From a virus: DNA of 26,467 nt. Shown in pieces: positions 2,448-7,977 of this stretch. The translations under genes and the position numbers were made by a program. Under the pieces are notes generated by a model. The model saw only the letters and a list, made by a program, of their open reading frames with translations. It was not told the origin of the DNA and searched no databases. Numbering within the stretch: the first letter of the stretch is position 1; each line of letters starts with the position of its first letter. The stretch lies in the IMG/VR virus record IMGVR_UViG_3300025705_000238, positions 1 through 26,467 of that record; one strand, 5' to 3'.

Positions 2448-2753
2448 TTATTCTTTCTCTAATTCAACCTGTAGTGAATAACCGCGGCTACGACTATCAG
2501 CAAGTGTTTCACTTGCTTTTTGTTCTGCAATCTCATACACAAATACACCTGCTACGCCACGTCCTGCTTGGTGTATCGTCATTGTAATTTCAGTTGCAAC
2601 ATCAATATCATGACTAAAAATACCCTGTAGTACTTCAATAACATATTCCATTGGTGTACTATCGTCATTAAAAAACACTACCTTCCATCTTCCAGGAGGC
2701 TCAAGTGTTACTCGGTTTTCAGTTTTTTGTATGGTTTCAAATTCTGTTGACAT
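2448..2753 (-). CDS. clpS: ClpS, N-degron adaptor for ClpAP
   Basis: 101 residues. ClpS binds proteins that start with a large hydrophobic residue and delivers them to the ClpA/ClpP protease. The sequence covers the whole ClpS core. The pocket residues are all present: N29-D30-D31 in [10 protein letters not shown]35, and H61 in [11 protein letters not shown]. The end ([10 protein letters not shown]) matches the usual ClpS terminus. No ClpA or ClpP is seen in the window, so it would have to work with the host protease. It lies between hsp20, from which a hairpin separates it, and guaC, 2 bases downstream. The SD is AGAG. An intact pocket argues for a working adaptor, although ClpS can also inhibit ClpA on other substrates. 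Confidence 0.93.
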
Positions 2754-2812: not shown

Positions 2813-3247
2813 TTACACTTCAGTAATTGAAATCTTCTTGGGTTGAAGTTCTTCTGGAACCTCACGTACCAAATGAATGTTAAGCATACCTAAATCCAAG
2901 GTTGCATTTTCCACATGCACGTGATCCGCTAGCGTAAATGTACGCTTGAAGCTTCTACTACCGATTCCTTTATGTAAGTAAGTTGTGTCCTCATTGCCTT
3001 CTGGTGCAGTACCAGTTACTAAAAGTTCACTTCCGTCCTGTGTTACATCCAGGTTATCCATTCCAAATCCTGCAACGGCTACACTAATCATGTATTCGTC
3101 ATCATTAATTTGTACAATGTTATACGGGGGATAGTTACCATTTCCTGATGAACCTGCGAACTGACGATCCAAATTTTGGAACATTCTGTCAAATCCAACT
3201 GTAGCTCTGTGAAATTCAGGTAGGTTTATTGTTGTTAGTCTTGTCAT
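2813..3247 (-). CDS. hsp20: Small heat-shock chaperone, Hsp20/IbpA family
   Basis: 144 residues. It holds unfolding proteins and stops them aggregating without ATP. An IbpA-like N-terminus (GFDRMFQNL) leads into an alpha-crystallin domain: NYPPYNI, VAVAGFGMDNLDV, YLHKGIGSRSFKRTF, LADHVHVENATLDLGML, and the C-terminal ISI motif that docks subunits. The start is the ATG at 3247, which has AAGGAG eight bases upstream; a TTG start at 3271 would place that SD inside the coding region. Hsp20 genes are common in T4-like cyanophages. It has its own promoter and an ~80-base leader, and is followed by a terminator hairpin. It falls in a block with IF-3, bS21 and ClpS, suggesting control of protein synthesis and quality. 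Confidence 0.93.
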   Translation of the reverse strand: MTRLTTINLPEFHRATVGFDRMFQNLDRQFAGSSGNGNYPPYNIVQINDDEYMISVAVAGFGMDNLDVTQDGSELLVTGTAPEGNEDTTYLHKGIGSRSFKRTFTLADHVHVENATLDLGMLNIHLVREVPEELQPKKISITEV

Positions 3248-3379: not shown

Positions 3380-3634
3380 TTAGTATTTTCTATCGCTTTT
3401 ACTGGGTAATTCCATTCCCGATGACTTTTTAAGCCAGCGTTTACGTGCGGCTGCTTTTGCTTTTTTACGTTTGGCACTTGGTTTTTCAAAATGCTGTCGT
3501 TCACGTAACTCTTTAAGCAACCCATCGTTATTAATTTTTTTCTTTAATTTACGCAACGCACGGTTAACGTCATTGTTAATCACGGTTACATATAGCCCCT
3601 TTTCAGGTTCTTTTTTATTATAATCTCTACTCAT
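3380..3634 (-). CDS. rpsU: Ribosomal protein bS21
   Basis: 84 residues. bS21 is a small-subunit protein near the anti-Shine-Dalgarno end of 16S rRNA and helps mRNA binding during initiation. The core matches the family: VTVINNDVNRALRKLKKK, then ELRERQHFEKPSAKRKK and an Arg/Lys-rich helix. It has about 12 extra N-terminal residues and a C-terminus ending RKY. The HFEKPS segment is closer to alphaproteobacterial S21 than to the E. coli FYEKPT form. Its ATG overlaps the infC stop in ATGA, so translation is probably coupled to IF-3. bS21 is the ribosomal protein most often reported in marine phages. It can exchange on ribosomes, so a phage copy could replace the host protein. Confidence 0.95.
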   Translation of the reverse strand: MSRDYNKKEPEKGLYVTVINNDVNRALRKLKKKINNDGLLKELRERQHFEKPSAKRKKAKAAARKRWLKKSSGMELPSKSDRKY

Positions 3635-4167
3635 TTTTCGCCTTTTACTATTGCTATTAATCTGTTGCCGTTCAATGAGGGTTTAGCTTCGAATCCTAAA
3701 CCTTCCACTGTTTCCATCAACCTACTAATTATTTGAAAGCCAACTTGTTTGTTAGCCATTTCTCGACCTCTAAAGCGGACCATTAATTTTACATGGTTAC
3801 CTTTCTCTATAAATCGTTGAACATGCTTGCACTTGGTTTCGAAATCATGGGTATCAATATTTGGTTTAAATTGAACTTCCTTGACTTCAATACGACTCTC
3901 TCTTTGCTTTTTTGCTTGTTCTTTTTCTTTTTGTTTCTTTTGATACAAAAACTTATTTAAATCAACTATCTTGCAAACTGGCGGCTTGGCATTCTCAGTA
4001 ACTAGTACTAAATCCAATCCACGTTGTCTTGCGGCATTAAGGGCCGCAGCTTTGCTTAAGATACCTAGAGCTTCACCTTCAGCGTTAACTCGAACTTCAT
4101 GAAAGCGTATGCTATCGTTAGCTACCACGTCGGGTAACTTTGGTTTTCTTCTGTCAAATTTTGACAT
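3631..4167 (-). CDS. infC: Translation initiation factor IF-3, full length
   Basis: 178 residues, the normal size. IF-3 binds the 30S subunit, keeps 50S away and checks the start codon and initiator tRNA. The N-domain (about 12-78) has NDSIRFHEVRV and the signature KPPVCKIVD (61-69). A lysine-rich linker (76-95) leads to the C-domain, with KEVQFKPNIDTHDFETK and RFRGREMANKQVG (131-143). Both domains are intact, unlike a relic. It starts with ATG, whereas E. coli infC uses AUU for self-repression. The SD is GGAG, about 15 bases away. It is the first gene after a perfect consensus promoter and overlaps rpsU by ATGA. Likely role: shifting start-site choice towards phage mRNAs early in infection. 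Confidence 0.95.
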   Translation of the reverse strand: MSKFDRRKPKLPDVVANDSIRFHEVRVNAEGEALGILSKAAALNAARQRGLDLVLVTENAKPPVCKIVDLNKFLYQKKQKEKEQAKKQRESRIEVKEVQFKPNIDTHDFETKCKHVQRFIEKGNHVKLMVRFRGREMANKQVGFQIISRLMETVEGLGFEAKPSLNGNRLIAIVKGEK

Positions 4168-4203: not shown

Positions 4204-4232
4204 ATTATATACGATTATATACGATTTGTCAA
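4204..4232 (-). promoter_or_regulatory. Perfect sigma-70 consensus promoter for infC-rpsU
   Basis: TTGACA (4232-4227), a spacer of exactly 17, then TATAAT (4209-4204); both hexamers match the consensus fully. A second TATAAT lies inside the spacer because of a tandem ATTATATACG repeat. The stop codon of the upstream gene is part of the -35 box. RNA would start near 4197, giving a 30-base leader. Confidence 0.9.
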
Positions 4233-4672
4233 GCACTTTTCATTTCAAACTCATGTCTAACATCAGTTTCCATATCGTTGAAACTATAGTATACTTTTAA
4301 TCTATAATTAGTAATCAGTTTACACAAACCTTTATTGGTTTGTTCTGGAGCAACAAAAACTATCGGCACATCATCTGCCTTTTGCCATTCCATAGTTGCA
4401 ATAAACATCTCTACTGCGTTTGCTGTATCAGCATTAACAATAATAAAGTCTACCATACCACACACTGCTCTTGCCCAAGGTGCAGTTACATCATTGATGC
4501 CTTTGACATCATAATAGTATGTAATGCTATTCTCAGTGAATAATGTGTCGTATACTTGACTGATTCTTTTTACTTGTTCTTCATCCATACCCATTAAAAA
4601 TATGCTTGGGCCGTTCTCATTCAAATAAAGGGTAGGCGGGGTTACGCTATAAACGCTATTATCAAATTCCAT
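4229..4672 (-). CDS. Unknown protein
   Basis: 147 residues, not recognised. It alternates hydrophobic strands and helices: PSIFLMGMD, MVDFIIVNAD and VPIVFVAPE look like beta strands of an alpha/beta fold, with acidic residues after them, but no nucleotide-binding motif is complete. No membrane segment or signal peptide is seen. It begins one base after the stop of the 680-residue membrane protein and is the last gene of that run. Its stop codon lies inside the -35 box of the infC promoter. Confidence 0.75.
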   Translation of the reverse strand: MEFDNSVYSVTPPTLYLNENGPSIFLMGMDEEQVKRISQVYDTLFTENSITYYYDVKGINDVTAPWARAVCGMVDFIIVNADTANAVEMFIATMEWQKADDVPIVFVAPEQTNKGLCKLITNYRLKVYYSFNDMETDVRHEFEMKSA

Positions 4673-4673
4673 G

Positions 4674-6716
4674 TTATGTATTTAACCAACTGTTATCAGG
4701 GTGATCTTTTTTCTTTTTGGGTTCAGGCTCTTGTTTTTCACCAGCGTCTGGTTTTGCTGGCTTTCTTATTTTTTTGGTGTCCGGTATCTCTCCAACACTT
4801 CCTCCGGTGTCCTGCTCGGCAGTAGTTCCTTCTTGGGTTTCGCTACTGTCAGGAACTTGTTCTTCTGCAGGTTCCACATCGCTCCGTCCTGATAGACTTT
4901 CCTCATCATCGGCTTCTCTATCTCGTTCATCAGATTCCACATTGTCATTTTGTATACTGCTACTTGTAGATCTATTAGTTGTTTCATTTTCAAGTTCATT
5001 ACGATCTTGCTCCTCTAATCTCTTTCTGCCAAACTTATGTATTGTCATTACGCCAGCTAGTACAAGTACAATTGCTAAAGGATCAAACACTGCAACTAAA
5101 AGAAGTATAACCCAACGTACTGCCTGTTCTAGTATATTGGTATCAGTTTGATCACCGTACACCATCTCTGCAATATATTTAACTGGTCCTACTTCTGCTT
5201 CAAGTTTTCTATTCTCAGCTTCTAAAGTATACTTTTCTTCTGTGAGATTGTCAATAGTATTATTTGCTTCTCGTATTTTATTTTGCTGTTCGTCTATTAT
5301 AGCATCTATGTCAGCACCGCCGTCAACACGGATTCGCTCTCTAAGACGCTGTATCAAGTCATTACTTGCAGCTATTTGTCCATCTGCACTAGTACGTAAC
5401 TGCTTGATGCTGTCACGTGCAGCAATGATACGTGTGTCGTCTGCTTGGCGTAATGCAGTTATGTTATCTTGTGCTGTTTGTCTGGATGCTCTGTTTGCAG
5501 GTATATCAGTGTCAAGCACTGCGTTAATTTTAACTTGTATATCTGACTTTGCAGTTTTAGCATTATCAATTGCACCTGCACGTACACTGTCAATAGCTTC
5601 TAATAATCCTTGCTTACGATTTTGTATTGCAATTGTTTGTGGGCCACGCAAGTCTTTAACCAAGTCTGTTAAACGTGTGCGCTCAGTATCCAGTGTTGCC
5701 TGTGCTTGTGTGCGTAATTCTACTGTTTGTGATTGTAACTGTGTAATACGTGTTTGCTGTGCATCTACCCATTTATTCAATGCACGTTGAGTATTACCGC
5801 CAAATAATCCATCACTGGTTACACCAATAACGGCCTGGCCTGCTTGAATCTGTCCACGCTCAGTACTTTGTAATTGGTTAGTAACTTTAACAATATTATC
5901 TTCCACCGCTGTTATCTGTGCTTCTAGAGCATCTAACGCACTGTTATCAATGTCCACATCACTAATACGTGTCTCGTATTGGTTTGCTTGTGTGTTTATT
6001 CTATCTAGATCTGCATCCAATTGTGCAATTTGATCTTTGTATGGCTGTACTTGTTCTTCAATACTTGCTACAGTTGTACCACTAAGCTCAGATCTAAATT
6101 CAGATACTAAACTATTTAAACGCTGTAATTCTTCATCCAAACTATTAATCTCATCAGTATACACTGCAACTCTATCTTCCAGTATACCCAATTGTGTTTG
6201 TATAATAGCATTTTGTTCATCAATAGCAGGCTGTACACGACTATATGCACTGTCAATACGCCCTTGTTCTTTGTCAATCTGTGCTTGAATGTCAGTGTTT
6301 AAGTTGCCAGTACTGGCTTCTGCTTTGACAATCTTTTGTTCAGCTCGAGTTATGATGCCTTCATTTCTACCAATTTCAGTTGCTATACGTTCAATTTGTG
6401 CAACACCTTCTGTTGCCATACTTGTTTGTTCAATATGTGCTTTTGATAGGAAACCAAAGATACCCATACTGGTGATAAACATCAGTACTACTGTGGCAAT
6501 TGTCAAATAAAACTTCATTAAAAATGGTGCAACATGCCAATATCTGTGTAACCACACTGCCGTGGTCACTTTAGCAACTTCTAATGCACTACCCATAATA
6601 ACAATAGGTATAACGGCCGCTGCAAAAATAGCAGTCAGTCCTATAATACTATAATACGCCGCTACTCCACTGATTGCAAGAGCGATTAATAATGTCCAAT
6701 AACCAAATACTTTCAT
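4674..6716 (-). CDS. Large membrane protein with a long coiled coil
   Basis: 680 residues. Three hydrophobic segments lie at the N-terminus (about 5-22, 25-43 and 66-90), with SALEVAKVTTAVWLHRYW between the second and third. Then come about 420 residues of Gln/Asp/Glu-rich helix with strong coiled-coil character (95-515). Another hydrophobic stretch follows near 535-562 (VRWVILLLVAVFDPLAIVLV). The last 110 residues are disordered: acidic first, then Lys/Pro-rich. The ends would anchor the protein twice in the inner membrane, with the coiled coil between them. Proteins of this design occur in marine T4-like phages, function unknown to me. The SD is AAGGA, and it follows the SNase-like gene by one base. 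A role in membrane remodelling or superinfection control is only a guess. Confidence 0.85.
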   Translation of the reverse strand: MKVFGYWTLLIALAISGVAAYYSIIGLTAIFAAAVIPIVIMGSALEVAKVTTAVWLHRYWHVAPFLMKFYLTIATVVLMFITSMGIFGFLSKAHIEQTSMATEGVAQIERIATEIGRNEGIITRAEQKIVKAEASTGNLNTDIQAQIDKEQGRIDSAYSRVQPAIDEQNAIIQTQLGILEDRVAVYTDEINSLDEELQRLNSLVSEFRSELSGTTVASIEEQVQPYKDQIAQLDADLDRINTQANQYETRISDVDIDNSALDALEAQITAVEDNIVKVTNQLQSTERGQIQAGQAVIGVTSDGLFGGNTQRALNKWVDAQQTRITQLQSQTVELRTQAQATLDTERTRLTDLVKDLRGPQTIAIQNRKQGLLEAIDSVRAGAIDNAKTAKSDIQVKINAVLDTDIPANRASRQTAQDNITALRQADDTRIIAARDSIKQLRTSADGQIAASNDLIQRLRERIRVDGGADIDAIIDEQQNKIREANNTIDNLTEEKYTLEAENRKLEAEVGPVKYIAEMVYGDQTDTNILEQAVRWVILLLVAVFDPLAIVLVLAGVMTIHKFGRKRLEEQDRNELENETTNRSTSSSIQNDNVESDERDREADDEESLSGRSDVEPAEEQVPDSSETQEGTTAEQDTGGSVGEIPDTKKIRKPAKPDAGEKQEPEPKKKKDHPDNSWLNT

Positions 6717-7087: not shown

Positions 7088-7294
7088 TTATGATTTTACT
7101 GTAAAGGTATCATTAATGCTATCGCCATTGATAGCTAATTCGTATCCACCAGATTCAGTTGGTCCATATGTGAACCCATGATCTGGAAGATTACCTAACA
7201 CTTGTTTTAATATATCTTGACTTGTTGTCTGGTTATCTACAAACGTATACCCGTCTATCCATTCTTGAATTGTTTCTGCTGTGTGTATTGCCAT
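7088..7294 (-). CDS. Small unknown protein
   Basis: 68 residues, acidic, not recognised. A short helix (AETIQEWIDGYTF) is followed by a segment rich in glycine and beta formers (FTYGPTESGGYELAINGD). Its ATG overlaps the stop of the P-loop kinase in TAATG, with AGGA eight bases before it, so the two are probably coupled. No motif indicates a function. Confidence 0.7.
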   Translation of the reverse strand: MAIHTAETIQEWIDGYTFVDNQTTSQDILKQVLGNLPDHGFTYGPTESGGYELAINGDSINDTFTVKS

Positions 7295-7977
7295 TATGAA
7301 TTATCCTGTATCCATTTTCTAGCAACTCTGTTGCGCACAGGAGCAGTAACAAATGCTCTGATGGATTTTTCTACCTGTTTAAAATTTTCTGCACGTGTTG
7401 GATCTTCTAGTCCGCCACTGTTGTCTACAACGTGGAAATCTTTAGCACCAAATATTTGTTGAAATTTCATAATATTTGATTGTACTTGTTTCCACATACT
7501 ACTAACCACATCACGTTTAAGTACTCTTGGACGATCTTGGTTACGTTGTTGTGACACTTCTTCACTTGTATTAACAAAAAGCATCATTGGTTCATATCCT
7601 AAGGATTTTAGTGCGGCACTGTGTTTGGCAACTTTTTCAACATCTTTACCTGTGCCATCAATAATAATACCAAGTCTGCCATCCAAGTGTGATGTTTCTT
7701 TATTCTTAGTAAGCTGTTTTGCACGATTACGAATTTCTTGTCCTTGTGGACTAGCAATAGCATCAGGATTTCGCAAATCAAGATCCTGCTTTTTTGCAAG
7801 GTATTCGTATATATCATCACTATTAATTGTTTTCATTCCAAGGCCAGTTAATAATTTTTTAGCGACAAAGCTCTTGCCGCTGCCTGGGCCTCCAGACAAG
7901 AAAATTGCTTTAAAAATAGCAGGGTCATTGACGCCTTCTGCAAAGTTATCTTCTTGTGTTATTTCTTCTATAAGCAT
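7294..7977 (-). CDS. P-loop kinase, zeta-toxin/polynucleotide-kinase-like
   Basis: 227 residues. A Walker A motif GGPGSGKS (29-36) follows the strand KAIFLS. SDDIYEYL comes next, then GIIIDGTG as the second strand with its acidic residue, and a basic stretch (RNQDRPRVLKRDVV) that could be the lid. This is the layout of small P-loop kinases such as the zeta-toxin and T4 polynucleotide kinase group. The phosphate acceptor cannot be told. A late promoter lies about 30 bases upstream, and an 8-bp inverted repeat covers the leader. It heads a run with a small unknown, the SNase-like protein, the membrane coiled-coil protein and another unknown. Confidence 0.85.
   Translation of the reverse strand: MLIEEITQEDNFAEGVNDPAIFKAIFLSGGPGSGKSFVAKKLLTGLGMKTINSDDIYEYLAKKQDLDLRNPDAIASPQGQEIRNRAKQLTKNKETSHLDGRLGIIIDGTGKDVEKVAKHSAALKSLGYEPMMLFVNTSEEVSQQRNQDRPRVLKRDVVSSMWKQVQSNIMKFQQIFGAKDFHVVDNSGGLEDPTRAENFKQVEKSIRAFVTAPVRNRVARKWIQDNS

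Follow-up and report, generated by a model that had tools for sequence, protein, structure and literature searches.

The window, by which we mean the whole stretch of 26,467 bases analysed here, is a viral record and represents a fragment of a marine phage. On its minus strand lies a block of genes in the order membrane/coiled-coil protein, 147-aa protein, IF-3, bS21, Hsp20, ClpS and IMPDH. The upstream member is a 680-aa protein (4674–6716), which on inspection has membrane segments at its N-terminus and an extended coiled-coil stretch; it has no trustworthy Pfam match, and relatives are present in 67 of 86 loci, the window counted. The conserved 147-aa protein (4229–4672), which likewise has no Pfam match, heads the block in the window's sub-clade and was found in 16 of the 86 loci. 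The infC gene (3631–4167) encodes both domains of IF-3 (PF00707 and PF05198; TIGR00168, 170.9 bits against a cut-off of 60) and overlaps the start of the gene for ribosomal protein bS21 (3380–3634; PF01165, 63.8 bits; phrog_21469) by 4 bases. This overlapping pair of bS21 and a full-length IF-3, scoring above the NCBIfam cut-off, is an observation in its own right, and the phage IF-3 may match ClpS in interest. A gene for an IbpA-like Hsp20 small heat-shock protein (2813–3247; PF00011, 55.9 bits; phrog_432) is located directly upstream of clpS (2448–2753), and a gene for a 383-aa protein of the IMPDH/GMP reductase family (1294–2445; PF00478, 231 bits; phrog_9582) starts 2 bases past the clpS stop codon. 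Judging from the sequence, clpS and the IMPDH gene are probably co-transcribed.

The minus strand of the window also encodes a protein of 357 aa that matched neither Pfam nor PHROG (180–1253) and is found again in other loci, 20 of the 86 having it (window counted), and a kinase of the Zeta-toxin/AAA_33 type (7294–7977) with a weak PADLOC match to VakA, which lies immediately upstream of a nuclease gene and is conserved across the sub-clade.

Identity and conservation of the viral ClpS

The sequence-only reading had placed a ClpS at 2448–2753, and this identification is borne out by profile search, sequence matches in the PDB and the predicted fold, with the gene on the minus strand. The 101-aa product matches PF02617 with E = 6e-25 (87.3 bits, cut-off 23), and its PDB sequence matches are exclusively ClpS. 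The AlphaFold model (pLDDT 90, with a less certain N-terminal extension of low pLDDT) lies within 0.5–1.3 Å of most of the top E. coli and Caulobacter ClpS structures (including 1mbx, 3o2b, 3dnj and 3gq0), some of which have an N-degron peptide bound, and Foldseek aligned it to many ClpS structures with probability 1.00 and TM by target of 0.92–0.98. The NCBIfam equivalog models for ClpS match below their cut-offs (best NF000669, 88.5 bits against 149). The gene is a genuine ClpS of the PF02617 family, with the clamp, gatekeeper and docking positions described below, and chance resemblance is ruled out by the Pfam score, the PDB matches and the fold. The median dN/dS across 37 pairs of related viral ClpS is 0.08, and the viral family is under purifying selection. 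Recent capture from a host is unsupported: all 64 distinct viral ClpS fall on one side of the split from chromosomal ClpS, a split with support of only 65. PADLOC gave no match for ClpS, and a link to anti-phage defence was rejected.

In the alignment with E. coli ClpS, residues N29, D30, D31 and H61 correspond to the amino-group clamp N34, D35, D36 and H66, and M35 corresponds to the gatekeeper M40. On the docking surface, E74 and K79 correspond to E79 and K84, which we take to be important for docking on the ClpA N-domain; E77 is also listed as a docking position. Among 85 viral ClpS, the residues N34, D35, T38, M40, V43, H66, E82 and L99 (E. coli numbering, as in the rest of this paragraph) are invariant; position 36 is Asp in 66 and Asn in 19, the clamp being otherwise unvaried, and the docking residues E79 and K84 are retained in 83 and 79 sequences, respectively. 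In the viral ClpS of two contigs that also encode ClpA, G344 and G343 (loci L365 and L366), the gatekeeper Met40 is replaced by Gln and the remaining clamp is kept.

The earlier statement that all pocket residues are kept is correct for N29, D30, M35 and H61 but inexact as a whole, because the position of E. coli Met62, a residue that presumably lines the hydrophobic pocket in the E. coli and Caulobacter structures, is occupied by T57. This replacement is typical of the viral form. Residue 62 is Thr in 46 and Met in 18 of 64 distinct viral ClpS, compared with Met in 61 and Thr in one of 62 sampled chromosomal ClpS, mostly from Pseudomonadota (Fisher p ~2e-18, shared ancestry ignored). The retention of Met in chromosomal ClpS rules out a plain host trait. 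Position 62 is a specificity residue that is unneeded for membership in the ClpS family, and its change to Thr may weaken or alter N-degron binding.

Compared with the proteobacterial ClpS of E. coli and Caulobacter, an adaptor of ClpAP, the window ClpS shares the fold, the clamp, the Met gatekeeper, the docking Glu and Lys, and a flexible N-terminal extension. It differs by the Thr at Met62, by an Ala at Cys73 and by an extension of 18 residues before P19, 5 fewer than the 23 of E. coli; moreover, its gene is not located beside clpA but is phage-borne, in the IF-3/S21/Hsp20 block. Residues 2–26 of E. coli ClpS sit in the ClpA pore (PMC9663308). Given the shorter extension, delivery by the window ClpS is not assured. 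A variant ClpS with an altered pocket is also seen among alphaproteobacterial paralogs, such as ClpS2 of Agrobacterium tumefaciens, but in the reverse form: in 7 paralogs of this type, the gatekeeper Met40 is replaced by Arg and Met62 is kept.

A conserved block with Hsp20, S21 and IF-3

The sequence-only reading implied that a phage ClpS would be novel and called for a search of viral genomes. The search, now run, yielded at least 555 viral ClpS loci in IMG/VR, so that novelty is not upheld and ClpS proves common in phages of this kind; together with many annotated records and papers from 2018 and 2021 (PMC6102473, PMC7824862), these loci led us to reject phage ClpS as new in itself. In Atu_ph07, Attai et al. 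2018 (PMC6102473) found seven Clp proteins, ClpA, ClpP, ClpX and ClpS among them. Iyer et al. 2021 (PMC7824862) observed ClpS among the proteins of jumbo phages and proposed that it delivers to host ClpAP; they mention IF3, ClpP, ClpA and ClpX separately from ClpS. Zaragoza-Solas et al. 2020 (PMC7029224) described S21 in pelagimyophages, and a further paper dealt with phage AlaS, heme oxygenase and bilin reductase (PMC11480375); neither mentions Clp. In the open-access literature, we came across no description of the IF3-S21-Hsp20-ClpS block or of the replacement of Met62 by Thr in viral ClpS, nor of the joint loss of pocket and docking residues in Rak2-like phages discussed below.

Gene neighbourhoods were compared across the 80 viral ClpS loci closest to the query, so the resulting frequencies describe a wider lineage rather than all phages. 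Hsp20 is encoded directly upstream of ClpS in 61 of 64 distinct loci, with gaps of −3 to 108 bp, and S21 occupies this place in the remaining 3. Directly downstream, heme oxygenase is found in 47 of the 64 and IMPDH in 7. Subsets of loci add DnaK, GroEL/ES, ClpX, bilin reductase and 5-aminolevulinate synthase to the block; among the loci sampled, 47 have DnaK and 6 have GroEL. A role tied to the bilin and heme genes was considered and rejected: the window and its sub-clade carry IMPDH instead of heme oxygenase, which therefore is not the common factor. In five loci (L005, L012, L014, L021 and L081), an S-adenosylhomocysteine hydrolase lies between heme oxygenase and bilin reductase, and their block can also contain DnaK and GroES/GroEL. 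In another set (L104, L110, L111, L123, L045, L064 and PA5oct, L095), a ClpX with a zinc-binding domain and an IGF-type ClpP loop adjoins IF-3 or S21.

A search for phage IF-3 made independently of ClpS recovered 45 loci, and 39 of these have ClpS downstream. The same association with the block is observed in distant cultured phages, the order being ClpX-S21-x-x-Hsp20-ClpS in PA5oct, IF3-S21-ClpS in Vibrio 2.275, IF3-ClpS in CBB, and Hsp20-thymidine kinase-ClpS in Phosso and Atu_ph07.

The near-invariant pairing with Hsp20, which extends to PA5oct and, with one gene between, to Phosso and Atu_ph07, brings up a different function, in which ClpS and Hsp20, together with DnaK or GroEL in relatives, would channel proteins that are unfolded or aggregated into ClpAP instead of selecting N-degrons. 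The presence of DnaK and GroEL in the loci counted above points in the same direction, as does the redirection of ClpAP to aggregates by E. coli ClpS, insofar as Dougan 2002 is cited to that effect in PMC6102473. However, such a function gives no reason for the N-degron clamp to be so strictly conserved, and as a replacement for N-degron selection we consider it rather doubtful. The two roles of ClpS are compatible and not mutually exclusive.

Clp partners in related phages and, probably, in the host

The earlier observation that neither ClpA nor ClpP is encoded holds for the 26-kb window only; where contigs are longer, many relatives encode both. Among the 14 ClpS-bearing records of at least 100 kb, all contain ClpP and 11 contain a protein with a Clp_N domain (ClpA); the ClpA of Phosso was found by tblastn instead of this domain. 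The best fit of the phage ClpA is the ClpA model TIGR02639 (770–885 bits, below its cut-off of 993 and well above ClpB), and the IGF/VGF ClpP loop is present wherever it was read. The stronger phage ClpPs have an intact Ser-His-Asp triad, and phage ClpX mostly keeps the zinc domain and the IGF loop. A second, weakly ClpP-like family (~45–70 bits to E. coli ClpP), also with an intact Ser-His-Asp triad, is frequent (L250, L251, L254, L264 and others).

We take E23, E28, T81, R86 and R90 of ClpA to be the residues on which ClpS docks. They are exact in 16 of 19 phage ClpAs from ClpS-bearing contigs and mildly changed in the other 3. They are also exact in most of 20 phage ClpAs from contigs without a ClpS match, so retention alone is no proof of a viral partner, and we rejected it as a strict sign of a co-encoded ClpS. 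Joint loss is the more telling signal. In 4 ClpAs of the Rak2/CBB/Vibrio type, these residues are lost, and the sampled ClpS-like partners have degraded clamps. The ClpS-like protein of the Rak2/CBB/GAP32 type resembles the window ClpS in its ClpS domain and its position downstream of a phage IF-3 gene. Unlike the window ClpS, however, the 177-aa protein of CBB has lost the Asn/Asp clamp and the Met gatekeeper, that of Vibrio 2.275 has lost His66 and Met40, and the phage ClpA accompanying this type is devoid of the docking residues. The two losses may represent a single event. Because ClpS persists in Rak2-like phages after loss of the pocket, its presence alone is no proof of N-degron delivery.

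The ClpS proteins of the jumbo phages PA5oct, Phosso and Atu_ph07 are ~35–43% identical to the window ClpS and are likewise phage-borne, with Hsp20 adjoining or near, and in PA5oct additionally with ClpX and S21; in PA5oct and Phosso, position 62 is Met, unlike the Thr of the window. Each of the three genomes has a ClpA gene. ClpP was detected in PA5oct and Phosso, and for Atu_ph07 it has been reported. In contrast, the available fragments of the window's nearest relatives (L007, L008, L032, L029, L020, L003 and others) have so far yielded no ClpA, ClpX or strong ClpP, the sole exception in the sub-clade being one weak ClpP-like match in the contig of L029.

The regular company of ClpA and ClpP in long relatives suggests that the window, too, could come from a phage with a complete Clp machine served by its ClpS, the ClpA and ClpP genes lying beyond the fragment. 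In the more distant relatives G310, G343 and G344, which have the IF-3 block, ClpA is encoded ~17–23 kb downstream of ClpS on the same strand; the window ends 2.4 kb downstream of ClpS, and contigs of the same species (98–100% across the gene compared) are no longer than 31 kb. Against this possibility, ClpA is absent over that 17–23 kb span in L008 (~30 kb downstream covered) and L032 (~46 kb), neither of which shows ClpX or ClpP on the part covered, and none of the three was found in the 75 kb of L007. We therefore regard a machine of the phage's own as unlikely here; the simplest reading, with all of these records being fragments, is that the sub-clade relies on host ClpAP.

ClpS is present in 277 of 299 Pseudomonadota genomes, so if the host is within Pseudomonadota, it very likely carries a ClpS of its own. 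Matches of the viral-type ClpS to genome contigs were rejected as a basis for host assignment, being largely phage contigs binned into MAGs: L087, L088 and L092, from Marinimicrobia, Pirellulales and Methylophilaceae MAGs, are phage-like contigs with the Hsp20-ClpS-heme oxygenase block or phage-type genes. Acinetobacter phage MD-2021a was also rejected as a ClpS phage; its records CAKLQF020000008.1 and CAKLQH020000043.1 contain an argC-clpS-clpA-aroF stretch that resembles a bacterial chromosome. None of 16 records, many ClpS phages included, was found to encode an L/F-transferase, an enzyme that would generate N-degrons; this counts against the N-degron reading, and pairing with a phage-made enzyme was rejected.

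The very abundance of host ClpS implies that a further ClpS could work through titration, occupying host ClpA and sparing the substrates of host ClpS, along with SsrA-tagged or phage proteins, with no productive delivery. The shortened N-terminal extension and the scarcity of Clp partners on the fragments of the nearest relatives would agree with such a blocker. A pure blocker of ClpA, however, would need neither the N-degron clamp nor the gatekeeper, and yet both are invariant in the 85 viral sequences; we consider this explanation improbable.

Functional model and implications

Taken together, these results favour a functional viral ClpS that serves as an N-degron adaptor to ClpAP, the partner being that of the host in the present case and a phage ClpAP in many relatives; we assign this reading a probability of about 0.62. 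It draws on the identity and fold of the protein, its clamp and docking residues, the purifying selection, the gene neighbourhood and the co-occurrence of ClpA and ClpP in relatives, and we infer binding, delivery, choice of partner and substrates. Delivery to ClpAP, as in the sequence-only reading, is still the best interpretation and matches that of Iyer et al. 2021, although the novelty of ClpS does not stand; overlooked at that stage were the replacement of M62 by T, the IF-3/bS21/Hsp20/ClpS block, and the relatives' own ClpA and ClpP.

Under this model, the window ClpS would bind proteins whose exposed first residue is bulky and hydrophobic and attach to the ClpA N-domain, bringing the bound proteins to ClpAP for degradation. 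By analogy with E. coli, it should also divert ClpAP from other targets, SsrA-tagged proteins among them. The gene is probably expressed in one run with those of IF-3, bS21, Hsp20 and IMPDH, in which case ClpS would help the infecting phage to take over translation and the quality control of proteins, host proteins being dismantled while the phage IF-3 and S21 organise new translation. Within the window's sub-clade, host ClpAP is the most likely partner; many related phages encode ClpA, ClpP and ClpX themselves. The viral protein would most likely add to or override the host ClpS, routing N-degron or unfolded proteins to ClpAP.

A more far-reaching version of this model, which we put forward as a speculation with the odds clearly against it, is that a large group of aquatic phages run an N-degron pathway of their own, in which a ClpS pocket reshaped by Thr62 would recognise other first residues than host ClpS does and feed a phage ClpAP or a recaptured host ClpAP, as part of a gene cassette dedicated to translation and protein quality.

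The block and the Met62-to-Thr change raise the questions of whether a different set of N-degrons is recognised and whether a host or a viral ClpA is served. The Rak2-like phages, in which the pocket and the docking surface of ClpA seem to have degraded together, offer a natural comparison. If the adaptor works, the first residue would let these phages decide which host or phage proteins are destroyed, a level of host takeover that has seldom been studied.
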